Shown one piece after another: positions 35,701-57,114 of a DNA stretch of 64,000 bases. The stretch covers positions 53,955 to 117,954 of the IMG/VR virus record IMGVR_UViG_3300033388_002987. One strand, given 5' to 3'. The DNA is from a virus. The notes under the pieces are model-generated. The model had not been told where the DNA came from and made no database searches. It saw nothing but the letters and a program-made list of their open reading frames with translations. The translations under genes and the position numbers were made by a program. Positions within the stretch are counted from its first letter, which is position 1; each line of letters starts with the position of its first letter.

Positions 35701-38620
35701 TATCAACACCAAACGCCATAGCTAACGCTAACCTATGATCATCCATAAGCTCTTCTGTCACAGTAGCAGCCTCTATAGTAATAGCAAACCTATGTAGCTT
35801 CTTACCTTGAGGATTAAATGTATTAGAGTCTAATATGAATCTACCATTCTTAACAAATTTGTAAGGGAAGTACATCTCTGTCACACCAGACTCCTGCATC
35901 TGCTTGTGCCAATCTTCTAAGAAATCCATATCACTTTCTATAGCAAAGTTCTTACCATTAACACTTGGCTTAATAAGGTCATGTACTGTATTAGGGTCAA
36001 CCCATCCTAGTAACACTCTTAACTGTTGTTTACCTTCTTCAGTCTTTGTCATCTCAAAGTAAGAGTCCATATAACCATCAGTCCATTCCCAGCTAGTAGC
36101 CTCTTGCTTATTAACTGCTTCTACAGTCTTAGTAGCTGTATCATAATGCTTACCAATATCTGAGGAGTTACGTACAGTACGCTCTCTCAACGGTGCAGTA
36201 GTAGAAGGATATCTCATAGAAGTCTCTGTACCAAGTACTTTATTAGCATATCTACTACCAATACTTAACAGTTTATTCTTTCTAGGATTATCAAACCAAT
36301 CGTTAGCACCAGTAAACTTAAAGTGGCCAACACTCACATCAACACCTTCTTGCTCACCAAATATCTCCGATGATTTCTTAACACCTGTCTCTATTAACTT
36401 ATTATCTTCCATAGCAGCAAGTGCAGTAAGTCCTAACTCAGTTTTGAACTTAGCTTCCGTAACTTCTCTATTCTCACCTTCAACATCTTTAATCTTAAGC
36501 CCAAGGTTCTTATATATAATACTACCAATACTATTAGCGGCTGTTGATGTTAATCCATCAATATCCCCAACTCTTTCACGCTCTTCTTTAGTTAAAGAAT
36601 CCTCTACATTCTTACCAAGTAATCTATTTATATCTTCATCAGTCCTTTTACTTGCTCTTAAACTTCCATAGTTAACCATCCAATCATTGATAGCTAATGC
36701 CATTGCAGTAATAACTTCCTTAGGAAGTGTATAGTTACCAGGCTCTCCTTGTAATAGTAACCTCGTAAGAGATTGGTATGCTTCGGACGGTGTATTACTT
36801 GTAACATCTAAGTCAGATATCCATCTTTGATCAAGTCCTTGTTTAACGAATCTTCTTATGTACTTCTCAGTAGTATTAGTAAGCTTCTTAGCACCATCTA
36901 AATACTTAGCTTCTAAACCTTCTCCAACAGTTTGTTTTATAGCTTCAAAACCTTCTCCAAATATATTAGCAACAACATTTAAGTTATTGTATACCTTCTT
37001 AACAGTAAAGAAATCTGAAAGTCTTACAGCTTCAGCATCTTTCTTAAACCTTCTAGCAGGCTTATTTGCTAATAGTCTATCACCAATAGTACCTTCAAGA
37101 CCTAACTCAGAAAGTACCTTATCAGCTCTCTTCTCAAGCTTAATAATTTCTTTACTAGTTTTAATTCGCTCAGTAATAGTCTCGGTAGCTTTTGCATCTT
37201 CTAACCATTTAATATCTTCACGGATAGCAGCTAACTCTTTATTAAGCTCTGCAGTATTTATTGTTGTAGTTATAGGCTCTTTTACCTTAACTTCAGTTAC
37301 TTCCTCAACAGGTGCTTGTGCTTCAGCATCTAGACGCTCTGCTTCAGCTATATCGTCAGCACTATAGTCTTCGTACTTCTCTATACCATCCTTAGTCTTA
37401 GTAATAAAAGCTTCGTCTCTAGCTTTATCCTGAGCATCTTCAGTACCACCAATATCCGCATTATCTTTAGTAGCAGCTTTTACTTTCTCTACTTGAGTAT
37501 TAGGCTTACCTAATCTGTACTTATACGTCTTACCATTTTTAAGTTCAGCTCTTACTTCGTCTAGGAACTTAGTAACTTCAGCTCTTTTCTTAGCAGTCCA
37601 TGGCTTAAGCTCAGCGTGCTCTTTAGCTAATTTATTAACTTTATTTTTAACGGCAACCTTTAACTTAGAAGTATCTATACTAAAAGTATCTTTAAACTTT
37701 GATTCTTTTTTAGGTTTAGTTTTTTCAGGAGTAGTAGTATCTTTTTCTGAAATTTCAGCAACCTTTGGTGCCTGCTCGTCCAACATCTTTAAATTAGCAT
37801 CTAATAGAACATCAAATAGATTATTGAGCTCTTCACCTTTAAATCCTAATATCTGTAATACATTATTAAGAACAACTTCATACATATTACTAAGTCTACT
37901 AATTGGCTTACCAGGAACTACACTCATAAGTTCTTTCATAAATTCTGGGTTTGATAACGCCTCTGCCAGAAACTCATCAACATTAGTTTCCCAATATGTG
38001 CTCTTAAACTTTAACTTATCTTTATTAGTAAGTAGGTAAGTGTAAATATCCTCTATACGCTTAGTAGCTGGCTCGTTTGGGTTAGAGCTCATGTACTCTA
38101 TAGCACCTGCGTGTACAAGCTCATGCAGCAGAAAGTGTGTCCCTCTAGCCTCTTTAATCTGGTTAAATACGTTTTCTACTTCAGCATCCAGCCTACGAGT
38201 CATATCCTCTTCAGTCTGTAACGTACCAACGCCGTCTAGTGTTCCATCAGTAACTTGCTTATAGAAGTCAATAGCTATCTGCTTCTTAACATCCACATCA
38301 ACTACACTAGCAACTTCAACGCCTTTACCAACACTAAATCTGGCAGGGCTAAATTGCTTAATACCAGTACGTATTTGGCCTAAAGTATATGCAACGCTGT
38401 CTGTGAACTTAACCCCAGTAACATCTCTTATAAGACTACCAAAGCCCTCACTAAACTCTTGTAAGCTAGTATCACTAGCAGACTTCCCTGCAGTTTTTAC
38501 TACAAGCTTACCAAACAGTTTTTCAGCTACTTTAGCGTTATTAAGTATTCTTTCAATCTTCACCCTAGCAGCGGGTGTGCCTTGTAGTAGTGCAATAGCC
38601 TCTTTTAGTTGACAAGCCAC
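32792..38620 (-). CDS. Virion RNA polymerase (N4-like) with two metallopeptidase domains
   Basis: 1942 residues. The centre carries the single-subunit RNA polymerase motifs: GR loop KNGRF with R927 followed by FNPQG; motif A D1054-AVTSG; motif B R1161-x3-K1165-x7-Y1173-G; motif C VH-D1429-A. The motif A-to-B spacing (111 residues, D to K) fits N4 vRNAP as I recall it, and is longer than in T7. Zinc-peptidase modules flank it: HELVH 166-170 with DEFLAE 215-220, and HELVH 1731-1735 with EEFLAE 1779-1784. By N4 analogy it is packaged, ejected into the cell and transcribes early genes. The peptidases may process ejection proteins or act on host targets (inference). GTG start overlaps the previous stop. 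Confidence 0.88.
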   Translation of the reverse strand: MACQLKEAIALLQGTPAARVKIERILNNAKVAEKLFGKLVVKTAGKSASDTSLQEFSEGFGSLIRDVTGVKFTDSVAYTLGQIRTGIKQFSPARFSVGKGVEVASVVDVDVKKQIAIDFYKQVTDGTLDGVGTLQTEEDMTRRLDAEVENVFNQIKEARGTHFLLHELVHAGAIEYMSSNPNEPATKRIEDIYTYLLTNKDKLKFKSTYWETNVDEFLAEALSNPEFMKELMSVVPGKPISRLSNMYEVVLNNVLQILGFKGEELNNLFDVLLDANLKMLDEQAPKVAEISEKDTTTPEKTKPKKESKFKDTFSIDTSKLKVAVKNKVNKLAKEHAELKPWTAKKRAEVTKFLDEVRAELKNGKTYKYRLGKPNTQVEKVKAATKDNADIGGTEDAQDKARDEAFITKTKDGIEKYEDYSADDIAEAERLDAEAQAPVEEVTEVKVKEPITTTINTAELNKELAAIREDIKWLEDAKATETITERIKTSKEIIKLEKRADKVLSELGLEGTIGDRLLANKPARRFKKDAEAVRLSDFFTVKKVYNNLNVVANIFGEGFEAIKQTVGEGLEAKYLDGAKKLTNTTEKYIRRFVKQGLDQRWISDLDVTSNTPSEAYQSLTRLLLQGEPGNYTLPKEVITAMALAINDWMVNYGSLRASKRTDEDINRLLGKNVEDSLTKEERERVGDIDGLTSTAANSIGSIIYKNLGLKIKDVEGENREVTEAKFKTELGLTALAAMEDNKLIETGVKKSSEIFGEQEGVDVSVGHFKFTGANDWFDNPRKNKLLSIGSRYANKVLGTETSMRYPSTTAPLRERTVRNSSDIGKHYDTATKTVEAVNKQEATSWEWTDGYMDSYFEMTKTEEGKQQLRVLLGWVDPNTVHDLIKPSVNGKNFAIESDMDFLEDWHKQMQESGVTEMYFPYKFVKNGRFILDSNTFNPQGKKLHRFAITIEAATVTEELMDDHRLALAMAFGVDIDKKSKANALKEWSELKTKLDKMITDGKTDLEILIEVQDNGWSHDIEHTIGGLAELRATNKYEAKNKTLVGFESKLPIETDAVTSGFILKILQMPIIKDVKNFLAKGGVFFDFNENTSYGRQAEQAGYTDAYNTPAEVMTRKLPKIAKTIEDNLPKGDRRSWYVRANKRATELALSTGVDEAIKTISRNFMKNPFMVFNYGSGLPKIISTIADDAIESLYTNISSTQDVAQVIAIIKDSGVSMKNTKDGWVAADGSKATIQLALNEAKKVQEMSEAQRKKYTIPEVLADNIRNNIKASVGTALEETFTETYGDYIEAGRKINNSFTMMFRLFKQKLDKAVDNKQKELGRHLKDSEINEIIGTLEESLPAIKTVLGDAKSKMMIFGNEAVNYDLLKGVKESGQANVRLADNKRLSGQAKRYKMVESFASGAVVPIHFIDGSIQSLVLSEVEGLGVHDANVLAIDKVTEGTKLYNKGTAQVSTKYSMVTEILNSVNSSINAASKEDIKAVDAEYVKESTSDKDKASTVESIQQDLVKLHDESETARTELLNEDIRFEHAAYEGAHYDRVGETYTRQEPNVKLKEKTTIPRPVVGSSTESYPNEFVSPIDNAMDSGILSDNKGSDITNFHISPVDLARKGNPFHSAAYGQYKQMSDMYSAKIMDVMGTRIVEDPEFITRQFTEGYLGKIILGQYTKDTNTIVLGDLNGEVVKEALSSHYSKDLKPTSTTKEVADVKELTDENYKIISKYINEQDAEYVRFHELVHAGSVAYMQAHPEDKLTKRVEDLFWEVFNMLPDPDMDALWMQSKEEFLAEGMSNPKVIKMLASIKPANPKEYFTNALDVLIDTVLTMLGMQGKRKGTMHDYLVDSFTAMVLEQEQVKKDVKEIKQVNAKALTGTGPRIVWTERLKKSWMNGPTLPKVRLEAVSDKDVAIAEGNKVREVVSGDIASDVFSHKFIAGEVARTTNKIKNCK

Positions 38621-38808
38621 TACGAGTTACCTAACAACTTAGACAGCTCTTTCTCTGCAAGTGCTTTGATAATAGAATTGACAGGTTGTTGGACACTATC
38701 ATAGGTACGGCTAGTTCCATTGTGATGCTCTTTAACTATCAATACTCTCTCTTCCAGAGGAAGAGAAGGTGAAACATATAAGTACCCAGGATTTTCTATA
38801 AATGTCAT
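38620..38808 (-). CDS. Small unknown protein, 62 aa
   Basis: Coupled on both sides by one-base overlaps (TAATG upstream, TAGTG downstream). No recognised domain. Presumably a minor virion or chaperone protein of the ejection group, by position only. Confidence 0.55.
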   Translation of the reverse strand: MTFIENPGYLYVSPSLPLEERVLIVKEHHNGTSRTYDSVQQPVNSIIKALAEKELSKLLGNS

Positions 38809-41800
38809 TAACAGTCCTTCATGTCTATATTATTTTTAGCTAACAGTTGCTGTAACCCTTTACTAGATTTAACTAGTAACATTACATTATCTCTAATTGT
38901 GGCATTATACTCAGATTCAGTATCTTTCGCAACACTGAGTATTTCGTTAACTGGTTTTGCTCTAGCCTTTTTCTTAGCTTTTTCTATCTTAACATCTAAA
39001 GCATCAAGCTCTTTATTAGTCTCATCCAACTCATCTTGTGTAGCAATAGGGTCAGCCTCCACAGGAGCCTCTTTAGTCTCAACAGGAGTACTTACCTTAG
39101 AAGTTTCTTTTGGAGCCTCCCCTGGTCTAATCATATTCCTTATAGATGTATCCTCAGCACCAGTAGGATCTTCTATAAAGTTGTCTTCAAATCCATATCT
39201 ACTATATAACCGTACAAGACGACTTAAAGTACCTACCTCAGGATCTGCTGTCAAAAGTATATCACTATCACCAAAGTTCTCTATAACCTTGGAAAGCAGT
39301 TTACTTGCAAGGCCCTTACCTCTACTGTCAGCACCTACAAATAGTTTACTCAAAGTAATGTCACCATTATCGCTTTGTACGATGTGTGCTGTGGCATTAC
39401 CACCTATACTGTAAATTGTAGTATCACCTTTTTTAGTGATCTTAATAGCCTCCACAAGAGCCTTCGTATCCTCTTTAGAAGTACTTACCTCAGTATCTTC
39501 TTTTGGAGCCTTCTTGACCTCTTTCTGTGACTTTGGTGACGCAGTCTTACCATTAGCAATTCGCTCAAGTTTATCTAACTCAACTTGCTCTTTCTTCATA
39601 ACCTCTGCAAGATTAGCAACTATTGCCACACCCTTATAAGGTCTACCAGCAAGCATTACTTTAATATCATTAGAAGTATTAACAGCTACAGACCTAGCTG
39701 CAGCCTTCGTATCCTCATCCCAAGTCTTCATTATCTTTATATTAGGGTTAACATCTTTAGCACCAACAACCCAAGGCATACCTTGCTCTACATCCCACTC
39801 TTCAACTGCACTAACAAACGTAGCAATCTTACTACGCTGACTTGCAACAAAGTTATTAATCTTTTCAGTGGCATTAGCATTAGGACCTTTAAGTAGCTGA
39901 TTAGCAAACTGTAAAACCCCAAGGCCAAACCTACCACCACCAATTAGTTTCTCTCTAGTAACATCGTATAACGTACTAACAGATGTCTTCTTAAGCTCAA
40001 GTAAATCAACTTGCATCTGATTTAATTCAGCCATAGCAGCTTCATCCTCAAGCACGCTATTTATATGTTTTAACGAGGCAGACGAGCTACCTATAATCTG
40101 AGCTACTTTAGTATCTAAATCAATATCTTTACTATTAATAATACTATCAAGCTCTTTACTACTAGTAGCAGTAGACAGTGCTGTCAACTGTCTTATCTTA
40201 GCATCCACAGCCTTAAGTCTTAGTGGGCCAGCTCCTGCATCCTTTAACTCTTGACGCATCTCTGTCATAGCATTAATACCAGTAGCAACAGCCTCTAACA
40301 TACCAGGCATATAATCAGTAGTATCACCGCCAGCTTCTCTAGCAACAAGCTCTGCAGTGTAATCCTTTATTTGCTGTACGCCATCGGCGTGCATATTATC
40401 AAAGTCTTTACTAATAGCTTGTAAGCCTTCAAACTGCTTCTCATTAAGGCTCTCTAAGTCTTCTAAAGACTCACCTTCAACAGAGTAAGTAGCCATATCT
40501 GCTTCTTCTAAAGCAATAGCAGATGCTTTATCAACATCTTTAGGTACAGCTCCCCCAGTAGTACTTACATCGTAAGTATCTACATTAAGGTCACCTTGAT
40601 CTCTATTACGTTGCTTGTTAGCTTCATCAATACCATCTAGGTCTGGATTAGCTTTTTTAGCAGCAGTTACTGTGTCGTGGCCTGGTCTTACAGCTTCCTT
40701 AGCTTTAGTAGCTAGGTTTTTAGCTTTGTCAACTGCAGCTTCAGTCTTACCCCCAACTATCTCAGCACCTCTACCTAGTACCTCACCACCACCTTTAAGG
40801 GCAGCACCCATACCGAATCCAATAGCAGCTTGATGTGCAGTCTCAGGATCAGTAACTATATCAAGTACAGACCTCTCACCTTCTTTTTGTGTGGCAATAG
40901 CCTCACTTACAGCTTCAGCTCCCTCTTGTAAGAACTCTCCACCACCTGATTTAGTAATTCTTTTAATAACACCACTCTTAGTGCCATCAGCAGTTTTCTT
41001 TACTATATCACTGATACCAGATTTTATCAGTAACTTCTCTGGCACTAGTACAGCTATCTCGGTAAAGAATGTCTGAGCAAGTTTACCTTTACTCATTGGT
41101 TTATTATTATTCTTTTCATACTCTTCAGCGTAGTTTGATGTTCTAGTAGCAGCAACTACTGCAGGTCCACCTGGAATACCTAGTGACAATATCTCACCAG
41201 CACTACCTGCAAGGATTCTGTCTAGTTGGCTCATACCATGTGCAAGTGACTTAATATAGTCAACAGGGTTATCTGCGTTCTTCCATAACTCAGCAGACTC
41301 TTGCATAGCAGTATTATGCTCATTAATAGTTTCTTCAGATACACCAAACTCTCTTTGAGCTGTAGTAGTATCACGAATACCTTCTATTGTTTTACGTGAA
41401 TCTTCATCTATAAAAATACCTGCTTTACCATCACCACCTAATGACTTCTCAACTTCAGATGCCCAAGCATCATACTTAGCAATATTCTCTTTACCTACCA
41501 GGTTCTCTAACATATTAACAGTATCAGCACCAAATTTAGCTACAGCAGCTTGCGCTATATCAATAGTCTCACCGATTCGGCCTTCGGAATCTGACTTAAT
41601 CAATGATGCATACGCTTCAGTACTTGATGCTTTTGTAGGAGTTAGCGGCATTTTACCAATACTAGTTATTCCATCTACAACTGTATCATCTGGTAGTGAG
41701 TACTTACCACCAATAGTACTTATCACACCTAAGTTTCTACCATAGTTATTACGTGGACTTTTATCAAAAGGATTAGGATTAACTTCTTGGTAACTCTCAA

Positions 41801-42215
41801 CTATTGCAGGCAAGTTACTGTAGGATGTCCCAGCTCCTAATATCTCTTTAGCAGAAGCTGCTTGAGCATTACCAGCAGCAAACACATCTTGCACTGATGC
41901 AGGCCTACCCAATTCAACAGATAATAGTGCTTGTTGTTCTTGGATCCTGTTTACGTTACGTGGGTTATTGAACCAAGATTGGCCCTTTGTAGTTTCGTAT
42001 GTATCTATCCCAAGAGCTCTTGTAGAGCTAGGGTCATCACGTAATGTATATGTGTCTGCATCATAGATATCAGATACAACATCTAGTTTATTACGTTTTT
42101 TAGCAGTTCGTTCTTGTAGTTTCGCAAACTTATCGTCGGCTATAGAAGTGGGATTAATAGCTGCAACTTCTGCATCTATGTTAGATAGGTATTGGTTAAA
42201 GTCAAAATTAGCCAC
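38808..42215 (-). CDS. Ejection-type virion protein with SNase-like and GNAT domains
   Basis: About 1135 residues. GTG at 42215 preferred because AAAGG abuts the ATG at 42221 but is 6 bases from the GTG. Numbered from that ATG, the N-terminal region shows the staphylococcal-nuclease active-site set: D54/D56 in YDADT, R68, D73 and E76 in RALGIDTYE, and R162 in YGR, with the same R-5-D-3-E spacing. A Gly/Ala-rich hydrophobic middle (about 340-500) could cross membranes. Near residue 968, SRGKGLASKLL marks a GNAT acetyltransferase domain ending RLYSRYGFED. A nuclease on an ejected protein could degrade host DNA or act on the cell envelope path; this is inference. Confidence 0.6.
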   Translation of the reverse strand: MANFDFNQYLSNIDAEVAAINPTSIADDKFAKLQERTAKKRNKLDVVSDIYDADTYTLRDDPSSTRALGIDTYETTKGQSWFNNPRNVNRIQEQQALLSVELGRPASVQDVFAAGNAQAASAKEILGAGTSYSNLPAIVESYQEVNPNPFDKSPRNNYGRNLGVISTIGGKYSLPDDTVVDGITSIGKMPLTPTKASSTEAYASLIKSDSEGRIGETIDIAQAAVAKFGADTVNMLENLVGKENIAKYDAWASEVEKSLGGDGKAGIFIDEDSRKTIEGIRDTTTAQREFGVSEETINEHNTAMQESAELWKNADNPVDYIKSLAHGMSQLDRILAGSAGEILSLGIPGGPAVVAATRTSNYAEEYEKNNNKPMSKGKLAQTFFTEIAVLVPEKLLIKSGISDIVKKTADGTKSGVIKRITKSGGGEFLQEGAEAVSEAIATQKEGERSVLDIVTDPETAHQAAIGFGMGAALKGGGEVLGRGAEIVGGKTEAAVDKAKNLATKAKEAVRPGHDTVTAAKKANPDLDGIDEANKQRNRDQGDLNVDTYDVSTTGGAVPKDVDKASAIALEEADMATYSVEGESLEDLESLNEKQFEGLQAISKDFDNMHADGVQQIKDYTAELVAREAGGDTTDYMPGMLEAVATGINAMTEMRQELKDAGAGPLRLKAVDAKIRQLTALSTATSSKELDSIINSKDIDLDTKVAQIIGSSSASLKHINSVLEDEAAMAELNQMQVDLLELKKTSVSTLYDVTREKLIGGGRFGLGVLQFANQLLKGPNANATEKINNFVASQRSKIATFVSAVEEWDVEQGMPWVVGAKDVNPNIKIMKTWDEDTKAAARSVAVNTSNDIKVMLAGRPYKGVAIVANLAEVMKKEQVELDKLERIANGKTASPKSQKEVKKAPKEDTEVSTSKEDTKALVEAIKITKKGDTTIYSIGGNATAHIVQSDNGDITLSKLFVGADSRGKGLASKLLSKVIENFGDSDILLTADPEVGTLSRLVRLYSRYGFEDNFIEDPTGAEDTSIRNMIRPGEAPKETSKVSTPVETKEAPVEADPIATQDELDETNKELDALDVKIEKAKKKARAKPVNEILSVAKDTESEYNATIRDNVMLLVKSSKGLQQLLAKNNIDMKDC

Positions 42216-42239
42216 GTACATCCTTTAAATTAATAAAGG

Positions 42240-43729: not shown

Positions 43730-44242
43730 TTATCCTACCTTAGACGTATCTACATATTTTCTAGTAGTAGCAGCTTTAGAAGCAGCAATCTGATCAGCTG
43801 TCATAGCTCCACCACCAAGTGCTAACCCAACATCTGCAGCATTCTGAATCTGTTGATTAATAAGTTGTCCCTGTGTCCCAATATTTCTATTAGCAAGTCC
43901 TTTTTCAAAGTCAAATTGATCTTCTGCAAGTCCAAGAGTTTTATATCCTGTATATGCACTAGCAAGAGAACCAAGTCCTTGTGCTACGTCAAGCGCATCT
44001 CCTAACCCAAATCCGCCACCAGCATCTTGTGCCCCATATCCTTCATTAACAACAGACTGCAAACCACCAGAGCCTTTTAAATTGGTAAATGATTGATTTA
44101 CACCAGCTTGCTCCCCAGGTGTAAGTTTCATGAATGCGGCCTGATCTAATCCTTGGCTACCTAAGAACTGTCCAAAATCAGTACTATTATCCCCAAATCC
44201 GAACATGCCTAAGCCTCTAGATGTTAATGTATTCTCTGCCAT
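43730..44242 (-). CDS. Putative internal virion protein, 170 aa
   Basis: Gly-rich N terminus, a GLGDALDVAQGLGSLASAY hydrophobic helix, then LAEDQFDFEKGLANRNI and repeated Gln/Asn, a pattern common in small ejection proteins of the T7 gp14 kind. Likely inserts in the host membrane during DNA entry. Strong GTAGGAG site and an extended -10 promoter upstream. Confidence 0.55.
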   Translation of the reverse strand: MAENTLTSRGLGMFGFGDNSTDFGQFLGSQGLDQAAFMKLTPGEQAGVNQSFTNLKGSGGLQSVVNEGYGAQDAGGGFGLGDALDVAQGLGSLASAYTGYKTLGLAEDQFDFEKGLANRNIGTQGQLINQQIQNAADVGLALGGGAMTADQIAASKAATTRKYVDTSKVG

Positions 44243-44294: not shown

Positions 44295-46583
44295 TTATAC
44301 CATACTAAGTTTTAATTTAGCATCAAAGTAATCTTTACATTTATCATCATAACTAAACAATACATCGTTATTATACTGTATACCTACTGCTTTATAAATC
44401 ATTAAATCTACACTTTCTATATATGGACTAACTTCAGTAGTAGCTAATCCAGCAACATACTCCACACTCAAATACTTATCTAAGTTATCTTGTTTATCCT
44501 CAAACTCATCCATACGTGTATCAAACAAAGAGGCGAATATATCAGTCTCTCTTTCAAGGGCTTCATAACCTTCGGCTGTTTGCATATTAAGAGCTTGCGC
44601 ACTGACTGATAATGTTGTTGCTGTCATTGTCAGTATATTAGCATCTGTAAATCCACCTTCAAATCCCCCACCTACATAGATAGAGGCAGCTATAACAGCA
44701 ACTGTTCCTAAGGCCCTTAAGAATTCATTATCAGTAAGTTTAAATAGCATCTCTAATGCTAGTTGTATTGCCATACCCGCAGCAATATTAATAGCAAGCT
44801 GTATAAGTATATCTACAAACTTACCTCCAAGGCCTGTAACTATAGTTAAAATAACCATTATAACAAACCCAGCTATTTGCATAAATGAGCCAAATGCTTC
44901 TGTCTCATAATATTCCAAGTGTGTTACATTAGCAGCATATGTAGACACTAACATACTCTTCATTAGTAACTCTGACTGTTCTATAGGAGACAGTGAAGAG
45001 GTAAAGAAATATGAAATAGGTACAAAGAACTCAGGTGCTGAGACATTAAATGCCTTAACACCCCACAGTCCTTCTCTATCAATAGCAGTAACACTATTAA
45101 GTTCTCCTATCACTATCTGCGTGTAATATTCTTCGACTCCTTGAAACTGCATAGTAAGAGTAGACCCTACTACATTATGAGTATAATTCCCCACAGGCCC
45201 GATCACTCCAGATACCACTGTTCTAGTTTGACTTGTCCATGCCATAGCATGATTCATAGTATGCTCTTGAAAAGTAGCTACGAAATCATTATTACCATCT
45301 GTGTCTATAAGTCCTGAGTCATCATACATAAAGTTAAACATTTGAAATAATGTTCTAGATACTACTTTAGAAGTATCAGAAGGCTTAACTCCAAAGTGTA
45401 TGAAAGCATCCTCAACGTTATCAATAGTAGGACTAGCCACTAGTCCTTCGGTAAATGTTTCTAAATCAACTCCAAGTATCTCAGTCATAGCTTCAGTGTC
45501 ACTGAGTAAAGCAGATCCTACTAGATCAATAGTATTTACCGTATTAGCTCTCAAAGTTATAACTGGTAACATCTCTAACTCTCCTATATACGTGTTAGAA
45601 GAATCGAGTGTAGGGTGTAAAGCTAACTCTGGGCTATATACCCAATAAAACCACTCACCAAGGACAGTAGTATAATATTTAACAATATAGAACTGTAGTG
45701 GAGAGTATGCCGGTTCATGCAGTACTACTAAGTGTTCCCCTACTACAGTAGTAGGGCCTACAACCACTATATCAACTGAATCAACTACTGTGCCTATAGG
45801 GACAACTTCATCAATATTACTAAGCTCTATAGTAACATCACTTACAACACCTGAAATAGTACTTTCTACTAACGTTCTCTCAGAAACAACTGTATTTACA
45901 TTATCAGTAGTAACATCTATATTAGTAACTACAACAGTTGTTGTAGTAGTAATAGTTGTGGTAATATCTTCTGATGTACTAATAGTTATATCGTACTCAT
46001 TAGTAGTATAGTTATAGTCAATAGTATCTACATTATATGTAAATCCATTATACAGTAGATTATTATTGTAAGGGGTATATCCATACAGTGTTTGTAACTC
46101 AAACCCTACATATTCTTCCTTAGTGGGAACCTGTAACTTAGAGTCTATAATAGTTACATCAAGTCCAGTCTCTACATCTATTATAGTTTTAAGTATAGTA
46201 TTATCTAAGATTCTAGCACTGATATTAGACTCCGGTAACCCGTAAATAGCTGTATCTCTACCGTACTTAAAGTATCCGTTAATCCTACTTCTAGCAACAC
46301 TTGATATTTTCATGAGTTTTTCTATTACAGTAGCATCTGGATCAGCTTGATGATCTAATGCTAATCTAGACATCCATGAGTCTATATCATCATCAGTCAT
46401 CATCCGCTGAGTAACAACCTCAACATCTATAACATCCTCATCCTTTATTCCAAATAAACTAAACGTAAACTCAGCTACAGCATCTAAAGACGAAGGCCAC
46501 ACTACCGCTAATATTTGACCTAGTAGTGGTCCAACAATAACAACTGATATAATCTTAGTAATCGCTTTTACAAAACTACTCAC
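44295..46583 (-). CDS. Virion-associated membrane-spanning protein, 762 aa
   Basis: GTG start behind AGGG, overlapping the previous stop by 8 bases. One hydrophobic helix near residues 10-30 (IISVVIVGPLLGQILAVVW) and a cluster of three or four between about 565 and 650 (FVIMVILTIVTGLGG, LAINIAAGMAIQLALEM). A Thr/Val/Ile-rich beta segment lies at about 205-290. No family recognised. Position between the acyl module and ejection proteins suggests a channel-forming virion protein, and a possible target of the acyl enzymes encoded just upstream. Confidence 0.6.
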   Translation of the reverse strand: MSSFVKAITKIISVVIVGPLLGQILAVVWPSSLDAVAEFTFSLFGIKDEDVIDVEVVTQRMMTDDDIDSWMSRLALDHQADPDATVIEKLMKISSVARSRINGYFKYGRDTAIYGLPESNISARILDNTILKTIIDVETGLDVTIIDSKLQVPTKEEYVGFELQTLYGYTPYNNNLLYNGFTYNVDTIDYNYTTNEYDITISTSEDITTTITTTTTVVVTNIDVTTDNVNTVVSERTLVESTISGVVSDVTIELSNIDEVVPIGTVVDSVDIVVVGPTTVVGEHLVVLHEPAYSPLQFYIVKYYTTVLGEWFYWVYSPELALHPTLDSSNTYIGELEMLPVITLRANTVNTIDLVGSALLSDTEAMTEILGVDLETFTEGLVASPTIDNVEDAFIHFGVKPSDTSKVVSRTLFQMFNFMYDDSGLIDTDGNNDFVATFQEHTMNHAMAWTSQTRTVVSGVIGPVGNYTHNVVGSTLTMQFQGVEEYYTQIVIGELNSVTAIDREGLWGVKAFNVSAPEFFVPISYFFTSSLSPIEQSELLMKSMLVSTYAANVTHLEYYETEAFGSFMQIAGFVIMVILTIVTGLGGKFVDILIQLAINIAAGMAIQLALEMLFKLTDNEFLRALGTVAVIAASIYVGGGFEGGFTDANILTMTATTLSVSAQALNMQTAEGYEALERETDIFASLFDTRMDEFEDKQDNLDKYLSVEYVAGLATTEVSPYIESVDLMIYKAVGIQYNNDVLFSYDDKCKDYFDAKLKLSMV

Positions 46584-47052
46584 TAGTAAACCCTAATTGG
46601 TTATATAGCTTTGTGAATTTAGTAGTCATATCACTTATCTTAATTACTAATGGAGTTCCGTGATTATGATAGTTACGTATGCTATACCCTACAGTAAGAG
46701 ACTTTAAATAGACAGCATCATCTGTATGAGGTACTACAAGTATTTTGTGGGAAGGAAACTGTGTAAACACTTCGTAAAACATTGCAACAGAAGCTATAGG
46801 ATCACCCCCCCAAATACTTATACCTTCTCCATGTTTCTCAATAATCGTTGTATATATAAACCCAACAAGTTTACCATCATTCATAACTTTATATGCATAC
46901 CCATTCTCAATACTATTAATCATCCTATTCTTATATGTTAACTCATCCATATCATAAGTCACATCAGAAATATACGTGTAGTGTATATCTACATCACTTA
47001 TCTGTGCAGGAGCAACAGTATACTCTTTACCGTACTTAGTAGTATAAACCAT
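46576..47052 (-). CDS. GNAT-like acyltransferase candidate
   Basis: 158 residues. The layout resembles a GNAT fold: VMNDGKLVGFIYTTI as the beta2-beta3 hairpin and a C-terminal KLYNQLGF typical of GNAT ends. The acetyl-CoA pyrophosphate loop (RxxGxG/A) is absent, so it may use another acyl donor or be a non-catalytic relative like the T7 gp13 group. It overlaps the ketoacyl synthase stop and the membrane-protein start, so all are made together. Confidence 0.45.
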   Translation of the reverse strand: MVYTTKYGKEYTVAPAQISDVDIHYTYISDVTYDMDELTYKNRMINSIENGYAYKVMNDGKLVGFIYTTIIEKHGEGISIWGGDPIASVAMFYEVFTQFPSHKILVVPHTDDAVYLKSLTVGYSIRNYHNHGTPLVIKISDMTTKFTKLYNQLGFTSE

Positions 47053-47924
47053 TATTGAGCCTTACCGTTCTTATGAAGTACACACGAGCCATAGAACCCA
47101 CCTAGTCCAGAGGCAACACATAAAACACTAGTTTGCACTCTCACATCATCAATAGCCATACAAAGTTCTAGTACAGCACTTACACCTTGTGCGTGTCCTA
47201 CCTCATCTTTATAATACAGAACTTCTTTACCTCGAACTAGCTCTTCCTCTGCTGCATTATTAGAGGCTGTTCTAGTGCCATGTGGCTTAACTACATCACA
47301 TGGTGTACTAACAAGAGCATAACCTTCTACTGTAGTATTAAACGGGTTACGGTCATACCTATACGCCCATTTAGTATCTGTCACTTCTAGAGGTGTTACT
47401 GTATTGCTGAGCACTATAATAGCTATGCCATCTGCTACAGTAATAGGTATACCATGCTCTTTAAATATTCGCAATGTATTAAAGCTTGTGCGCTCTTCTG
47501 CAATAATAATAACTTCCTCACAGACACCGTCATTTAAAAGTCTTTGAGCTTCATAAATACTATGCATACTGCTAGCACATGTATTACTGTTTATATTAGC
47601 GTACACAACTAATTCATTATTTTCCATTTCACCTATCCACTGGTGCATACTATAAGCTGTAGACTCCTTAATAATTATAGAAGGTTTCGTGTAAGTAACA
47701 GTGCCTACATAGCGACTATTTACCGAAACTATATCTCTACTCTCTGATTGGTGAATATTAAATCCTCCAGCATACAGCACAGCTGTAGGCTTTGATAAAG
47801 TTATCTGGTTTATTAGATTTAAGTACTGCTTAGTAGTGAAATCTACCCTGTTTATATTATCAATCTCTAAGTGATCACCACAATTTATTGTAGCCTTTAT
47901 ATACTCGTAATGTTTGATATACAT
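47052..47924 (-). CDS. Beta-ketoacyl-ACP synthase, compact
   Basis: 290 residues, about 120 shorter than FabF, yet with the whole active site: nucleophile C116 in NSNTCASSMHSIYEA, H215 in VKPHGTRTASNNAAE, K239 and H244 in KDEVGHAQG (same Lys-5-His spacing as FabF KSMTGH), and a GLGG gatekeeper loop near the C terminus. The family condenses an acyl group on the Cys with malonyl-ACP. The start lies within the ACP gene (28-base overlap), so enzyme and carrier are co-translated. The deletion between the Cys and first His removes part of the cap and dimer region. Location in the virion operon is highly unusual. Confidence 0.82.
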   Translation of the reverse strand: MYIKHYEYIKATINCGDHLEIDNINRVDFTTKQYLNLINQITLSKPTAVLYAGGFNIHQSESRDIVSVNSRYVGTVTYTKPSIIIKESTAYSMHQWIGEMENNELVVYANINSNTCASSMHSIYEAQRLLNDGVCEEVIIIAEERTSFNTLRIFKEHGIPITVADGIAIIVLSNTVTPLEVTDTKWAYRYDRNPFNTTVEGYALVSTPCDVVKPHGTRTASNNAAEEELVRGKEVLYYKDEVGHAQGVSAVLELCMAIDDVRVQTSVLCVASGLGGFYGSCVLHKNGKAQ

Positions 47925-48148
47925 TTATCTACCATCTCTTTAATAGTAATATTTGAAAAATCTACTGTTGCGAATGGGTCAGTCTTAATAGGGATATCTC
48001 CAAAGTAGTTATATTTGTCATCCAGCTCCATGAACAGTACAGTAACCCCAAAGCTATCAAGGTTAGCATCGGTTAATATGTTAGCTAAGGTAACTCTATT
48101 ACCTTTTTCTTCTCGAATCTTAGAGTTAATAAACTCTAAAACTTCCAT
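47897..48148 (-). CDS. Acyl carrier protein
   Basis: 83 residues, acidic and helical. The phosphopantetheine site is S32 in NLDSFGVTVLFMELDD, matching the ACP pattern (D-S-L/F, then a helix with E/D). It would be charged by the host phosphopantetheinyl transferase. It overlaps the ketoacyl synthase and is TAATG-coupled to the upstream virion gene. Confidence 0.78.
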   Translation of the reverse strand: MEVLEFINSKIREEKGNRVTLANILTDANLDSFGVTVLFMELDDKYNYFGDIPIKTDPFATVDFSNITIKEMVDKCISNITSI

Positions 48149-48612
48149 TAAATCTCTCCAATAGGGTCAGTAGTAACAGTAATTCCAAGCCCATCCATAG
48201 CGTCTTTCATAACACTATCAACAACATTAACTTTAATCGTATCTGGTATTGCATTAGCATCTTGTGCAACAGAATAAGCAACTGACCAACTATCAAGTGT
48301 TTGCTTAAGTAACTTCTGCTTAGCATCATCATCAAAGCCTTTAGCTTGTCTAATAGCTAGTGCAGTCTGAGCTTCAGTAAGATTAACTTTCTCTTCTGTA
48401 ATAGCCTCTTGCATAGCAAATCCTATACCATTCTGGAATGCAGCAGGTATCATCGCTGTATAAATCTCACCAGCAGCTTCTCTAGTAAGTTCATTATTAA
48501 CAATCGCTTCATCAACGTGAGCTCTTGCTAACTTTAGCAAATCACCTACGTAACCTCCATCATCTATTGTTGCAGTACCTACAACGCTTTCCCATGTAAT
48601 ATCAACAGCCAT
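48148..48612 (-). CDS. Putative virion protein, 154 aa
   Basis: Helical, acidic, Ala-rich with no Cys. Lies two genes past the capsid gene (endonuclease excluded) in the place where N4-like phages have small head proteins. AAAGGATTATAA ribosome site. No family recognised by motif. Confidence 0.55.
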   Translation of the reverse strand: MAVDITWESVVGTATIDDGGYVGDLLKLARAHVDEAIVNNELTREAAGEIYTAMIPAAFQNGIGFAMQEAITEEKVNLTEAQTALAIRQAKGFDDDAKQKLLKQTLDSWSVAYSVAQDANAIPDTIKVNVVDSVMKDAMDGLGITVTTDPIGEI

Positions 48613-49337: not shown

Positions 49338-50114
49338 TTATTCCTTTAGGTTGTCAAGGTATGTGGTGATTTCCTTTACTTGTGTATCTGCTAAGTTGAA
49401 CCACTCACCATGTGAGTTACACTCTTTGTATTTTATATGTAGAGACTTCTCTACTTGCTTAGCGTCACCAACATATTGTGAGTATACTAGCGTCAAAGGT
49501 ACTGGCGATGAGGTAACTAACTTCTTGAACCTACCTTCGACATTACTAGACATACCTATCTTATAAGTATTGTTATACTTAATAACATAGATATAATCAG
49601 GTGTACGTTTACTAGCCGTTATTGTAAGAGCTGTCTTTAGAGTGCTGTATTGTGCGATAGTCAGTACCTGCACAACTGTTTTAGTATTCCTAATAGTTCC
49701 TGATATTATTGTAGCAGTGGTTGTGTCTCCAAACTTCCCAGTTCGCTGTAGCGCTTTAAGTCTTCTAATAATATTAGAATGTGGCTGACTAAACTCGGTA
49801 GCAAGTATAAACGTATGTAGTGTGTCAACTGGTACACCTGCAGTATAATCAGTACCAGCTATCCTACTGCTATGTACCCTAGGATCACCGACCTTAGGCA
49901 TAAACGTCATTGTCTGTTTATTTGCAATAGTACCGTTAATAGTGTACGAAACTTTACTATGAGTATCACGTAACTCCTTATAGCACTCATACATATCATC
50001 TTTAAACTCAGTCATGGAGTTCCAGTCAACTGTAATAGTAGTATCTTTTTTAAGTAAGTTGTATTTTTCTTGGAATGCTCTGTAGTATGGAAGGGTAGTA
50101 GGTAATGGGTTCAT
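49338..50114 (-). CDS. GIY-YIG (T5orf172-like) endonuclease with Rha-like N terminus
   Basis: 258 residues. The C-terminal third (YIYVIKYNNTYKIGMSSN...VEKSLHIKYKE...GEWFNL) is the GIY-YIG variant of T5orf172/MUG113 proteins. Upstream, TEFSQPHSNIIRRLKAL resembles the DNA-binding helix of Rha/antirepressor-type domains. It interrupts the run from capsid to head proteins, has its own promoter and is followed by about 108 gene-free bases. Best read as a homing endonuclease inserted beside the capsid gene. Confidence 0.75.
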   Translation of the reverse strand: MNPLPTTLPYYRAFQEKYNLLKKDTTITVDWNSMTEFKDDMYECYKELRDTHSKVSYTINGTIANKQTMTFMPKVGDPRVHSSRIAGTDYTAGVPVDTLHTFILATEFSQPHSNIIRRLKALQRTGKFGDTTTATIISGTIRNTKTVVQVLTIAQYSTLKTALTITASKRTPDYIYVIKYNNTYKIGMSSNVEGRFKKLVTSSPVPLTLVYSQYVGDAKQVEKSLHIKYKECNSHGEWFNLADTQVKEITTYLDNLKE

Positions 50115-50183: not shown

Positions 50184-51515
50184 TTAAACTAATGGAGCTG
50201 TACATGCAACTTGCATGATTCTTTCAGCTTTGTATATAAGTGTACCGAAGTACCAAGATATACTCATTGAACCCTGCTTACCAAATGGATCGTTGTGTGC
50301 ATCAGCCTTAGGCATTGCAGTCTTAATTGCAGATGAATCACCTTCGAAACCGACAGTTGCAAATGAATCAGAACCAACAAATAATACTGGGAAAACATCA
50401 AATGCTTCAACAGTAGATTGACCAGCTTGGTATGAACTGTGGTAACCAGCAATATCATCAGCTGAATCAGCAACACCATCAACAGCACCAACACCACGAT
50501 ATTTCATCATGTTATCAACTTCAATAAAACGGAAACGACCTATCTTACCAATTTCACCCATTGCAGTAGTACCAGCATCAGCATAAGCTTCGATTGGAAC
50601 CCATACGTTTACTGAGTTATGTTGCATATCTTCTAACATTGGAGTAAGTTCTTGACCTACGTAAACGTAGTAAGCTTTACCAACAACTTTAGTATCAATT
50701 TTAGTTGAACCAGAGATTAGTTTAGTATCACGTGGTACTAAAAGACGTTTAAGTTCTTGCTCCATAATACGTAAATCAGCGTAAGTTAACTCAGCAACTC
50801 TATTACAAGTAATAAGAGATGTAGCAACAGTACCAGCGAATGAGCGATTAACTTCAGATGCAGTTAAAAGGTCAGCTTGAACTTGTGCTTCATAAAGGTC
50901 ACCTTTAGCTTCACCAAGTGCTTTAGTTTTACCAGCAAGGATACCTACTCTTGAATCCATATCAATAGACTTTTGAGTGAATTTAGTATGAATACCAAAC
51001 TCGTTAACATTACCACGAACAGTCACAGACTTAGTGTTAACACCATTAACATTACCACCCTCTTCTGAAAGAGTTGGGAAAGAACCAGAAACAACAGCGA
51101 AATCAGCGTCACCACCATAAATTGCACCAGCACCATCTTTAGTAGATGTAGTTGTAGCTATAGCGTCAGCAACTACAAGAGCAGCAGCATAGTTAGCATG
51201 GTCACGTACTTCAGTTGAACCTACTAGAGAACCAGCAGCGTTATAAGAGTATATAACTTGACCAACAACAGTTGCAGTAGTAGCATCAACACCACCATCT
51301 AAACGGTTAAGTTCGTGTAAAATTGGGAACTGACGTTCTTTAACAATTTCGTCACCATAGTGTTTAGGTTGAGTTAATCTATCACCTAATTGTGTAAATA
51401 CTCTTTTCTTAGCTGCTTCTTTAATAGCACCTTTAGACCAGAATTTGTCGTTATATTGTTCGTCGATACCAGTAGTTGTTACACCACCATCATTAAATAA
51501 TGAGTTATTAGCCAT
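50184..51515 (-). CDS. Major capsid protein, N4-gp56 family
   Basis: 443 residues. Matches the N4-gp56-type capsid pattern, with an N-terminal arm (DEQYNDKFWSKGAIKEAAKK), an HK97-like core and a C terminus KQGSMSISWYFGTLIYKAERI. It follows the scaffold gene, as usual. A hairpin at 51552-51579 lies between the two. Adjacent endonuclease is downstream. Confidence 0.88.
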   Translation of the reverse strand: MANNSLFNDGGVTTTGIDEQYNDKFWSKGAIKEAAKKRVFTQLGDRLTQPKHYGDEIVKERQFPILHELNRLDGGVDATTATVVGQVIYSYNAAGSLVGSTEVRDHANYAAALVVADAIATTTSTKDGAGAIYGGDADFAVVSGSFPTLSEEGGNVNGVNTKSVTVRGNVNEFGIHTKFTQKSIDMDSRVGILAGKTKALGEAKGDLYEAQVQADLLTASEVNRSFAGTVATSLITCNRVAELTYADLRIMEQELKRLLVPRDTKLISGSTKIDTKVVGKAYYVYVGQELTPMLEDMQHNSVNVWVPIEAYADAGTTAMGEIGKIGRFRFIEVDNMMKYRGVGAVDGVADSADDIAGYHSSYQAGQSTVEAFDVFPVLFVGSDSFATVGFEGDSSAIKTAMPKADAHNDPFGKQGSMSISWYFGTLIYKAERIMQVACTAPLV

Positions 51516-53781: not shown

Positions 53782-54225
53782 CTAAATAGTACCTAAACCT
53801 CCGTAAGCTGCCTGATCTCTAGTAGTTTGCTCTTGAGCCATACCCATAGCAGCTTGTGCTACACTAGGATCTAGCTCACCAGCTTGTATCATCTGAGCTA
53901 TTTGCTCTTGGCCAATCTGGCCTTCTAGTATACCACCGGCTAATTGCTGTGCTTGAACTTCTTGAGGCATGATAGGTGATTGCTGTTGTCTCATCATATC
54001 ACCAAGCCCTTGCATTATCTCAGCTTCTGCTTGAGCCTTACCGGCTTGTGCGCCTGCTTGTAATGTTTGAGCTTGTTTTAATTGAGCTTCACCATTAATA
54101 TTAGCAGTAGTAGCATCTAGCCCAGCATTAGACTGGTAATACGGATTCTGAGCAGTTTGCTGCTGAGGAGCTCCTAAGCCTTGTTGTGAAACTCTTGACG
54201 GGTGCTGTGGTAAATCTTGTGGCAT
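53782..54225 (-). CDS. Gln/Ala-rich virion protein, 147 aa
   Basis: Low-complexity Gln/Ala/Gly protein with repeated AQA/QAG units, helical coiled-coil type. Such proteins near portal genes often are head-completion or internal proteins. AGAAGGATAAC ribosome site; start coincides with the endonuclease stop (TAATG). Confidence 0.55.
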   Translation of the reverse strand: MPQDLPQHPSRVSQQGLGAPQQQTAQNPYYQSNAGLDATTANINGEAQLKQAQTLQAGAQAGKAQAEAEIMQGLGDMMRQQQSPIMPQEVQAQQLAGGILEGQIGQEQIAQMIQAGELDPSVAQAAMGMAQEQTTRDQAAYGGLGTI

Positions 54226-54941
54226 TAGTTATCCTTCTTTCTAGTTTTAGCTATATCTATAGCATCATTCTCATCAGCAACTACGTGCCAATCATACATA
54301 CTCTTTCGAGTGCCTTTTATTATTTTATCTAAATTCATAATACTATTTAAACTATACTTCAAACGAAGTTCAGTAGCAGTACCTATAAATACACAGCCAT
54401 TTATGTGCTTAAAGATCAGTGGTACATCCTGTAGGTACACTAGTCCGGAATTAGGGACGCCTTCTAAAGTGTAACCTTCCGTATGTGTACGCTCCCCAAG
54501 TGCTACTTTTTTTATATTTGCTATATGCAGACCAAGAGATTCTGCTAATTCAGAAATATACCCAGACATAGTTGGAAGGAATTCATGAGTTAATGTAAGT
54601 ATTCCAAACTCTTCATCCTTAGTGGAACTAATATAGTTGGAACCTCCGTTAGTTAAATTATAGCCATTTTCAAATGCATCATATTTCTTAATGAAGTAGT
54701 TCTCTAAAATATTGGCCTCTTCAATGGTATCTATCATATCAGCAAGTATTGAGTGTTCCCAGTTTAATGTGCCGTAGAATCTAATGGCTCTATGAAAGTG
54801 TAGTTCACTACCAGCATTGGAGGCTTGTACGTACTCTGTCCATCTAATACCTGCTCCACGCTTAGTCAAACCTATATAGCTTTTACCAGATTTATTGGAA
54901 GTACACTTATAAATAACCCACTGTTGACATTTAGATCTCAT
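54225..54941 (-). CDS. GIY-YIG homing endonuclease beside portal
   Basis: 238 residues. GIY-YIG core: WVIYKCTSNKSGKSYIGLTKRG, then R and the E in IEEANILENYFIKKY. The C-terminal part resembles modular intron-endonuclease DNA-binding segments (EFLPTMSGYISELAESLGLH). It overlaps the portal stop by 11 bases and the following gene by one, so the insertion kept the operon reading intact. Confidence 0.85.
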   Translation of the reverse strand: MRSKCQQWVIYKCTSNKSGKSYIGLTKRGAGIRWTEYVQASNAGSELHFHRAIRFYGTLNWEHSILADMIDTIEEANILENYFIKKYDAFENGYNLTNGGSNYISSTKDEEFGILTLTHEFLPTMSGYISELAESLGLHIANIKKVALGERTHTEGYTLEGVPNSGLVYLQDVPLIFKHINGCVFIGTATELRLKYSLNSIMNLDKIIKGTRKSMYDWHVVADENDAIDIAKTRKKDN

Positions 54942-57114
54942 TAATTACCTTGGATGGTACATTAACTACAGCTTTCTTCATACGCTCTATACCCGCTTTA
55001 GTATTCGCAGCATACTCTTGATCTTCAACATCCTCTAAACGTTGCTGGCCAGTTTGTACTCTTAAAAATTGGCTATCCAATATATCTGTCTCACTTCTTA
55101 GTTTCTCACTAGTAGCAATAGCTTGCTCTGCCTTAGCAAGTTTAAGCTCATTATCACCATTACTGTTCTCTTCAGTTCTAGAAATTCTCTCATATATCTT
55201 ACTATCGTAATCTTCAAGCTGTTTCATCGCTAACGCGTTCTTTAACTTCTGCTCTTCTAACTGCAACGCCATAAGTTCTTGTTGCATTGGGTTAGGTTCA
55301 GGAGCGTAGTTCTGTACTTGTTCAGCTAAGTCATCTAACTTCCATAGCTCAGCAAGCTTTACATAGTGCATCTTAACTATCTCTTGGTCCATACTTGCAG
55401 CATTAGTCTGCATAAGCTTCATTATCTTAGTAGCTTGGTCATCATCCTTCTCAGGAGTACTAACTTGTATCTTTAAGTCAAATTTCCCCTCAAGGTCATC
55501 TCTCTTAATAGTAACAAACTCACTATCAGTAACAGCTACCACTTCCTCTTCAGTAAGGAACACCTGATTCATACTAATAGTCATTCTAGCCATATCTACA
55601 AATAACATATCACTTAAACGTCTTAGTATGCTAAGTTCTCTTTTAGCAGTAGCGTCCATAGAATCTCTATCTTGCTTACTACCATTCATCTTAGCTCCGC
55701 CAGGGCCATTAAAAGGTTTAGTACCTGTTAGTTCATTAGCATCAGCAGTTTGCCAGTTAATAACCTCAAACGGTGTATTACCTATAGCTTGTGTATCTTG
55801 TCTATAAATAGCAGTCTTCGGATTAAATCCTGAACGATAATAAACTGTATTACCTTTCTCATAACTATTTCTTTGAGCAGGACTTGGGAAGAAGTTCTCA
55901 TCAATGAACTCCTGTCCAACGGCATGTCTAGTAGTAACATCATGTATAGCTCTAGTCATCTTACCAATAGACTCTTGGTTCTCTTTAAGCAGCTCAGCAT
56001 CAGGCTCACCATGAACTGATTTCTTAACAGGCATATAAGTAGCAATACTGAATGGAAGTCTTCCATGTGGAAAAGGATTCTCTTCAAGTCTGATAAGTGT
56101 CTTACCAACCCAAGTAGCAACAATACTAACTAAAGTACCATCCCCATTAACATCCCAATAACCCCAGTACTCATACGCACGCATTCTCTTACGTGCCTTA
56201 TCTTTAAACTTAAAGTTATTAGACTCAGATGACTTGTAAGGGTCTTCTTGTTCTTCCTCACCTTCTAAATCGGTATCAATAAAATCTAAGTTATGGTAAA
56301 TACCATACTCAGTACCATCTTCATCTTTACTGTACTCTTCTGATTTTAAATCAGAATAAGAAGTGTCATACTCATGAATAACAAATAGCGCATCAGCTGC
56401 TACACCATCACAAGTAGGATCAATAGTAACATTAGCATTAATACATACTTCATAAGATGGTTGATTTTTAGTAGTTACCTCTTTTTCAACTATAACAGTT
56501 TTAGTACCAACTTGTACAGGTTCTCCAGTCTCAAGCATAGCTTGTGCCTGTTCTTGAGACATCTGCCCAGCTCCAACAGCTTGTTGCATCAATATTAAAG
56601 ATTCTTCTGGAGTAGCATATATAGGCTGCTCTTCTTCCACATCTCTAAGTTCTGTTTCAGTATCCCAGCCAGTCTTAACTATAACAGTACCTTCATCAAC
56701 TACTGTTCTCACAATATCCGATACAAGCTTAGTTTTCTGTACTTTAGTATTCCACTGGTTATTAAGCACTAACCCGTTCTGTTTAGCAGCTTCTATATCT
56801 AGGTTTGTTGTAGGAGATACTTTGTATAAGTTACTAGTACTAAGGAATGGATCTTCTAAGGCAGGGTACTTCCACTCATTTTGTTTACGAACAAGCTTAG
56901 GCCTAGCAGTAGACTTACCAAGACCTTTAACAGTAATCTCTTTACCACCGTTCCTGGTCTCTTCCCATTCTGTAAGTTTTTCCTTAAACTCCGACTGCCC
57001 TGCTTCGGCACTAGTGTAGTCATTATTAAGGTCAGCATACGTGGGAGCGTTATTCCATTTCGGTTGTAGCTTAGTTTTCTTAGGCGTATTGTCTACGTCA
57101 ATCTCTTCTGCCAT
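54931..57114 (-). CDS. Portal protein
   Basis: 727 residues, near the size of N4 gp59. Acidic/helical wing region, RAYEYWGYWDVNGDG in the stem-crown part, NPFPHGRLPFSIATYMPV typical of podovirus portals, and a long C-terminal coiled coil (MQQELMALQLEEQKLKNAL) forming the barrel. Forms the dodecameric DNA channel at the head vertex. A sigma70-like promoter precedes it. The C terminus is joined to a homing endonuclease by overlap. Confidence 0.82.
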   Translation of the reverse strand: MAEEIDVDNTPKKTKLQPKWNNAPTYADLNNDYTSAEAGQSEFKEKLTEWEETRNGGKEITVKGLGKSTARPKLVRKQNEWKYPALEDPFLSTSNLYKVSPTTNLDIEAAKQNGLVLNNQWNTKVQKTKLVSDIVRTVVDEGTVIVKTGWDTETELRDVEEEQPIYATPEESLILMQQAVGAGQMSQEQAQAMLETGEPVQVGTKTVIVEKEVTTKNQPSYEVCINANVTIDPTCDGVAADALFVIHEYDTSYSDLKSEEYSKDEDGTEYGIYHNLDFIDTDLEGEEEQEDPYKSSESNNFKFKDKARKRMRAYEYWGYWDVNGDGTLVSIVATWVGKTLIRLEENPFPHGRLPFSIATYMPVKKSVHGEPDAELLKENQESIGKMTRAIHDVTTRHAVGQEFIDENFFPSPAQRNSYEKGNTVYYRSGFNPKTAIYRQDTQAIGNTPFEVINWQTADANELTGTKPFNGPGGAKMNGSKQDRDSMDATAKRELSILRRLSDMLFVDMARMTISMNQVFLTEEEVVAVTDSEFVTIKRDDLEGKFDLKIQVSTPEKDDDQATKIMKLMQTNAASMDQEIVKMHYVKLAELWKLDDLAEQVQNYAPEPNPMQQELMALQLEEQKLKNALAMKQLEDYDSKIYERISRTEENSNGDNELKLAKAEQAIATSEKLRSETDILDSQFLRVQTGQQRLEDVEDQEYAANTKAGIERMKKAVVNVPSKVINEI

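Follow-up and report, generated by a model that had tools for sequence, protein, structure and literature searches.

A phage gene trio for an acyl carrier protein, a ketoacyl synthase and a GNAT-fold protein, with the adjoining tail plug as candidate acylation substrate

We analyzed a stretch of 64,000 nucleotides (the window), the right-hand part of the 118-kb virus record IMG/VR IMGVR_UViG_3300033388_002987. Among its virion genes lie three overlapping genes for an acyl carrier protein (ACP), a beta-ketoacyl synthase (KAS) and a small protein with a predicted GNAT fold, hereafter the trio and, for the last, the third protein. They are followed directly by the gene of a homolog of the N4 tail plug, gp53, whose N-terminus may be acylated by the products of the trio. 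The features concerned are as follows.

47897..48148, minus strand: ACP, 83 aa, with a DSFG motif and a putative phosphopantetheine attachment site at Ser32
47052..47924, minus strand: compact KAS of the FabF/KS-alpha type, 290 aa, with the site Cys116-His215-Lys239-His244
46576..47052, minus strand: third protein, 158 aa, GNAT fold without a coenzyme A (CoA) loop according to fold prediction and alignment; proposed acyltransferase
44295..46583, minus strand: tail plug, N4 gp53 homolog, 762 aa (phrog_2220); proposed acylation substrate
46452..46583, minus strand: N-terminal extension of the plug, residues 1-44 (MSSFVKAITKIIS...), GTG start, linked to the trio; its N-terminus is the proposed acylation site
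48148..48612, minus strand: virion protein at the position of N4 gp54 (tail tube), 154 aa (phrog_2050); the tail-tube label is given by position
43730..44242, minus strand: protein at the position of N4 gp52 (ejection), 170 aa; weak BLAST match to N4 gp52 (E = 0.012)
50184..51515, minus strand: N4 gp56-like major capsid protein (MCP), a Schitoviridae-like marker

On the minus strand, the ACP and KAS genes overlap by 28 bases, the KAS and third genes by 1 base, and the third and plug genes by 8 bases, while the 154-aa gene upstream overlaps the start of the ACP gene by 1 base. The ACP, KAS and third genes are real, intact and translationally coupled. Because it carries an N4 gp56-like capsid protein and a virion RNA polymerase gene, the window phage was grouped with the N4-like Schitoviridae. 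Other Schitoviridae carry these genes in the order MCP, gp55, gp54, gp53, gp52, into which the trio is inserted after gp54 and ahead of gp53 (MCP-gp55-gp54-trio-gp53-gp52).

The three proteins of the trio

Single-sequence searches of Pfam, NCBIfam and the PDB gave weak matches, from which neither the KAS nor the third protein could be classified. When a profile of four KAS members was compared with solved structures, actinorhodin KS (1tqy) was matched at E = 3.4e-8 and FabF at E = 1e-6, and a 65-member profile matched Escherichia coli FabF at E = 1.3e-24 (E = 0.04 for the N4-type members alone). For the ACP, the profile match to E. coli AcpP had an E value of 4e-6, and the Alteromonas homolog matched PF00550 at E = 5e-4, just under the cut-off. 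Judged by these profiles, the KAS is a member of the FabF/KS-alpha beta-ketoacyl synthases with predicted condensing activity, and the 83-aa protein is an acyl carrier protein. A ketoacyl synthase and an ACP had been named in an initial annotation from the DNA alone, active-site residues included, and the profile searches bear this out. Loss of Cys116 or Ser32 among the relatives was looked for; the Cys/His/Lys/His site was invariant in the alignment of 65/65 KAS relatives and the Asp-Ser of the phosphopantetheine site (Asp-Ser-[Leu/Phe/Met]) in 70/70 ACP relatives. This invariance reflects purifying selection on the active sites rather than decay.

The phage KAS shares its Cys-His-Lys-His site and its sequence family with FabF and the KS-alpha of type II polyketide synthases, but it is compact (290 aa, where E. 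coli FabF has 413) and its N-terminal part is little similar. Profile comparison of the KAS from N4-like and P22-like phages, the two groups described below, gave a probability of 99.4%, by which the two are homologous; a single common acquisition is not implied by the comparison. No FabG-type reductase and no phosphopantetheinyl transferase (PPTase) were recognizable in the 118-kb record, and the phage must therefore lean on host enzymes for ACP loading and chain finishing.

The AlphaFold2 model of the window third protein had a predicted local distance difference test (pLDDT) score of 82, and its top 50 PDB matches in Foldseek were all of the GNAT type. The P22-like third protein was modeled with a pLDDT of 92, and its best match was the protein-lysine acetyltransferase Rv0998 (E = 8.8e-5), with NcdE and the acyl-homoserine-lactone synthase TofI also among the fold matches. 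The N4-type and P22-like proteins are predicted to have their helices and strands in the same order; profile comparison detected no sequence similarity between them. A GNAT fold is thus predicted clearly for the P22-like member and with moderate support for the window member. The [QR]xxGx[GA] acyl-CoA loop was absent from all 11 N4-type third proteins, and the CoA pyrophosphate loop was absent at the beta4-alpha3 turn of the P22-like ones. The earlier description of a GNAT-like protein lacking the acetyl-CoA loop therefore stands as regards the loop; as regards the fold, it is supported by prediction, with weak matches in the PDB. In the N4-type proteins, one column of helix 1 holds His or Asp, and Asp or Asn mostly follows beta4; these residues might or might not correspond to the catalytic His/Asp dyad of HlyC.

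Occurrence of the trio and the N-terminal signal

Relatives were gathered by scans of viral contigs. Many unannotated "phage" records matching the P22-like KAS resembled bacterial contamination and were left out of the counts, and a scan of genome contigs yielded one fragment of a metagenome-assembled genome only. The relatives form two groups, the N4-like Schitoviridae, to which the window belongs, and P22-like podoviruses, first found as MW202545.1. The order ACP-KAS-GNAT is common to both. Of the 64 distinct KAS loci, 59 were found by BLAST to have the KAS gene flanked immediately by the ACP gene upstream and the third gene downstream, so that the survey of related phages called for in the initial annotation found the co-occurrence conserved; the remaining five comprise four contig-end or divergent cases (in L003, the third gene is divergent) and L068. 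In the P22-like group, the gene just ahead of the trio is annotated as phage stabilization protein, the gene just behind it encodes a protein of 600-700 aa, and an SLT transglycosylase protein is encoded further downstream.

The KAS is an optional part of the kit. Alteromonas phages R22Y and PT11-V19 have no KAS and keep the ACP, the GNAT and an extended plug. When the P22-like group was scanned with the GNAT as anchor, KAS and ACP were both present in 63/76 loci and both missing in 10 (L246, L247, L271, L276, L278, L283, L285, L286, L287 and L292); the readable loci among these 10 keep the downstream protein with the MSAVV-type start described below. Because the KAS, or both KAS and ACP, can be dispensed with, the stable unit is the GNAT plus the N-terminal signal, and the ACP and KAS appear to be supply-side additions.

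The 762-aa neighbor had been described as a large membrane-spanning virion protein, a description that is corrected here. A hidden Markov model of its family matched N4 gp53 at E = 1e-46, with homology over nearly the whole length and residue 1 of gp53 aligning to position 42 of the family profile. By this homology and by gene position, the protein belongs to the N4 gp53 tail plug family. A single copy of N4 gp53 occupies the tail tip, and a stretch at its N-terminus joins a hydrophobic knot that corks the tube (PMC12633501); DEV gp74 is a further Schitoviridae tail plug (PMC12892993). Both are homologous to the 762-aa protein and share its gene position, but in the set examined an N-terminal extension of 42-56 residues occurs only beside ACP and GNAT genes. 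It was found in 13/13 aligned plugs adjoining these genes and in 0/11 plugs from phages without them (Fisher p = 4e-7, with phages counted as independent although related). In one of these 11 phages, 1.097.O, the annotated plug is 13 residues longer, apparently through a misplaced start. Nearly all of the 13 extensions start with M-[G/S]. In five further trio loci, the plug likewise has a leader ahead of its core, and two of these have unusual starts. Separately, the gp53 proteins of N4, LIT1, DSS3phi2, Presley, 12VC501 and D505 (L294-L298, L215, L216) start with MGLFS and Lys-rich residues; these starts of trio-negative plugs resemble a myristoylation motif, and no ACP or GNAT gene lies between their gp54 and gp53 genes.

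A similar start is present in the second lineage. The P22-like protein encoded after the GNAT begins MSAVV, MGAVV or MGGVV; position 2 is Ser, Gly or Ala in 75/75 readable genes, and position 4 is Val in 70/75. When a profile of these starts was applied to the N4-type phages, 12/17 trio plugs outscored nearly every one of some 316 other protein starts (2e-10 by rank test, and 6e-5 when compared with trio-negative plugs), and trio-negative plugs scored like the background. Judged by its different make-up and family hits, the P22-like downstream protein is probably unrelated to the plug beyond the N-terminus. The same N-terminal signal is carried by two different downstream proteins, the N4-like plug and the P22-like protein.

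Proposed acylation of the plug and alternative explanations

The eukaryotic N-myristoyltransferase (NMT), acting on N-terminal Gly, and NatA, acting on Ser, Ala or Gly, are GNAT-fold enzymes that work after Met removal. A likeness to the NatA type is seen in the RimI- and Ard1-type enzymes among the fold matches of the phage GNATs. Because the CoA loop is absent from the phage GNATs, acyl-CoA is an unlikely donor, unlike for NMT and NatA. The toxin-activating acyltransferases HlyC, ApxC and RtxC are set apart among GNAT-fold proteins by lacking CoA-binding elements and use acyl-ACP as donor (PMC8339906). They and CdiC resemble the phage third protein in fold, in the lack of these elements and in gene order, their genes lying immediately ahead of the gene for the membrane-active or delivery protein that is acylated (PMC8339906, PMC8510554). 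Unlike these systems, the phage encodes the ACP itself, and often a KAS too, and its likely target is an N-terminus, not an internal lysine, on a substrate that would be a virion tail plug. As a member of the HlyC/RtxC or NMT sequence families the third protein was rejected, since Pfam gave no HlyC and no NMT match at E <= 1. The cassette may therefore be likened to acyl-ACP-dependent protein acylation of the HlyC/CdiC kind or to N-myristoylation while probably lying outside those sequence families.

We put at about even chances that the trio is a phage-encoded protein-acylation cassette, in which the GNAT-fold protein N-acylates the downstream tail-tip protein from a phage acyl-ACP tailored by the KAS. 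A host enzyme would load phosphopantetheine onto Ser32 of the ACP, and an acyl chain from host fatty-acid synthesis would be tailored by the KAS, which might set the chain length or leave a beta-keto group. Without a CoA-binding loop, the GNAT-fold protein would accept the acyl-ACP and move the acyl group to the alpha-amine of the Gly or Ser exposed by Met removal at the start of the plug extension. The lipid could then close off the tail tube, or it could enter the host outer membrane on receptor binding and anchor the tail tip there as the tail is unplugged; entry of a lipidated protein into the outer membrane has been proposed for CdiA acylated by CdiC (PMC8510554). Catalysis, the N-terminal target, the identity of the acyl group and the biological role are all inferred. 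The initial annotation had suspected a small acyl-building module that lipidates a virion protein, first of all the 762-aa neighbor. Lipidation of this neighbor is favored by the co-occurrence, the plug extension and the second-lineage signal, with acylation itself a matter of deduction; the acyl-building part is weakened by the dispensable KAS and the missing FabG-type reductase and PPTase.

Several observations weigh against N-terminal acylation of the plug. Acylation was not directly observed. The GNAT fold matches of the window third protein are weak (E > 1e-3, TM score 0.3-0.47), and no fully invariant catalytic His or Asp was found in the aligned N4-type GNATs. The 10 P22-like loci have a GNAT and the signal without an ACP or KAS. 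Kinship among the trio-positive phages, which is possible, would inflate the association between trio and extension. Some trio plugs start off pattern, with MPFV (L002), MAKP (L307) and MCDP (L309), and trio-negative plugs also mostly begin M-G, so that Gly2 alone is unspecific.

Among the alternatives, HlyC- or CdiC-like acylation of a lysine within the plug or within another virion protein is unlikely, though it survives best. It has the chemistry of GNAT-fold, acyl-ACP-using enzymes without CoA elements on its side (PMC8339906), as well as the lipidation of a delivery protein, CdiA, by CdiC (PMC8510554). At plug column 410 (window numbering), 12/13 trio-positive plugs have Lys and 0/6 trio-negative plugs do, but this column was chosen out of all columns, and Lys410 is kept as no more than a rival since the window plug has Arg there. 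The shared signal at the N-termini of two protein families would be left unexplained, and no HlyC-family sequence match supports it. Column 410 is the site of the most conserved lysine of trio-positive plugs.

It is rather improbable that the trio consists of auxiliary metabolic genes that act late in infection to steer the synthesis of fatty acids or membrane lipids in the host. In Alteromonas phage R22Y, the ACP, which has the same gene position as in the window phage, is read as a host lipid metabolism gene in the portion of the R22Y paper drawn on here, which does not mention the coupled GNAT or the plug extension (PMC11705849). Other phage ACPs, in Rhodobacteraceae prophages and Erythrobacter phage vB_EliS-R6L, have likewise been annotated as auxiliary metabolic genes, prophages with acpP-fabF-fabG have been reported (PMC8224337), and the active sites of the window KAS and ACP are intact. 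However, the trio lies in the virion operon, overlaps the tail plug gene away from other metabolic genes and is linked to the plug extension, and the record lacks the reductase and PPTase named above. Remodeling of host acyl-ACP or lipid pools, the other suggestion of the initial annotation, retains this small probability and leaves the N-terminal signal unexplained. The evidence favors a virion role over a host-lipid role for the ACP.

Improbable, too, is a non-catalytic third protein that serves as assembly factor or chaperone for a hydrophobic N-terminus. T7 gp13 (a probable scaffold in Pfam) and P22 gp14 (head morphogenesis) directly precede ejection genes in this way, and the N4-type GNATs are very divergent. 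A dedicated ACP with an invariant Ser and a KAS with an invariant site would then have no explanation, however, and comparison of sequence profiles connected neither T7 gp13 nor P22 gp14 with the third proteins of the trio. Neither protein was identified as a GNAT in Pfam and PDB searches.

YiiD/MadA carries a GNAT domain. A malonyl-ACP decarboxylase or loading enzyme of this type, described for Proteobacteria (PMC8666670), would explain a GNAT beside a KAS and an ACP, by priming the phage KAS for a short or beta-ketoacyl product used elsewhere. This is very improbable, as the GNAT also occurs without the KAS, or without both KAS and ACP, still ahead of a protein with the N-terminal signal. 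Synthesis of a small acylated molecule resembling an acyl-homoserine lactone or N-acyl amino acid has only the slightest probability: TofI counts among the closest structural matches to the P22-like GNAT, but the virion-operon location, the N-terminal signal and the plug extension play no part in it.

Neighboring genes and implications

Further genes of the window were noted. The virion RNA polymerase is seemingly split into adjacent open reading frames (ORFs) at 28485-32783 and 32792-38620 (minus strand; 1,432 and 1,942 aa); its phrog_2206 match covers the first ORF, the C-terminal part, to which the search was limited. A 1,137-aa protein of the ejection region (38808-42221, minus strand) has a canonical GNAT domain near its C-terminus, at about residues 938-1013, in which the RGKGLA CoA loop is intact (Acetyltransf_10 at E = 5e-5, slightly beyond the cut-off), and is possibly an injected acetyltransferase. 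A T5orf172/MUG113 protein (GIY-YIG type; 49338-50114, minus strand) is encoded between the capsid gene and the gene at the gp55 position. An ORF resembling it (54225-54941, minus strand) adjoins 54931-57114, and a different, HNH-like ORF lies near the operon at L002:6618-7256. Homing endonucleases seem to move around the virion operon.

T7 gp13 and P22 gp14 occupy the same gene place as the phage GNAT, and in T7-like phages (L184-L212) the gp14-type ejection proteins right behind gp13 nearly all start MCW...AIP (one starts MCEP).

No lipidation machinery for a virion protein of a tailed phage was found in our searches of open-access literature. At somewhat less than even odds, two unrelated podovirus lineages possess a dedicated N-terminal lipidation system, a counterpart of N-myristoylation in viruses of prokaryotes, with their own ACP and KAS and with a lipid on a tail-tip protein, in N4-like phages the plug, a cork that first seals the tail and then anchors in the host outer membrane. 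If true, this would give a concrete role to phage ACPs that are currently read as metabolic genes and would tie them to the recently described tail plug, placing a lipid where the tail meets the outer membrane. The cultured Alteromonas phages R22Y and PT11-V19 carry the ACP and GNAT, which makes the prediction testable. It would also offer a lead on a possible role of the small proteins encoded before ejection genes, such as T7 gp13 and P22 gp14.

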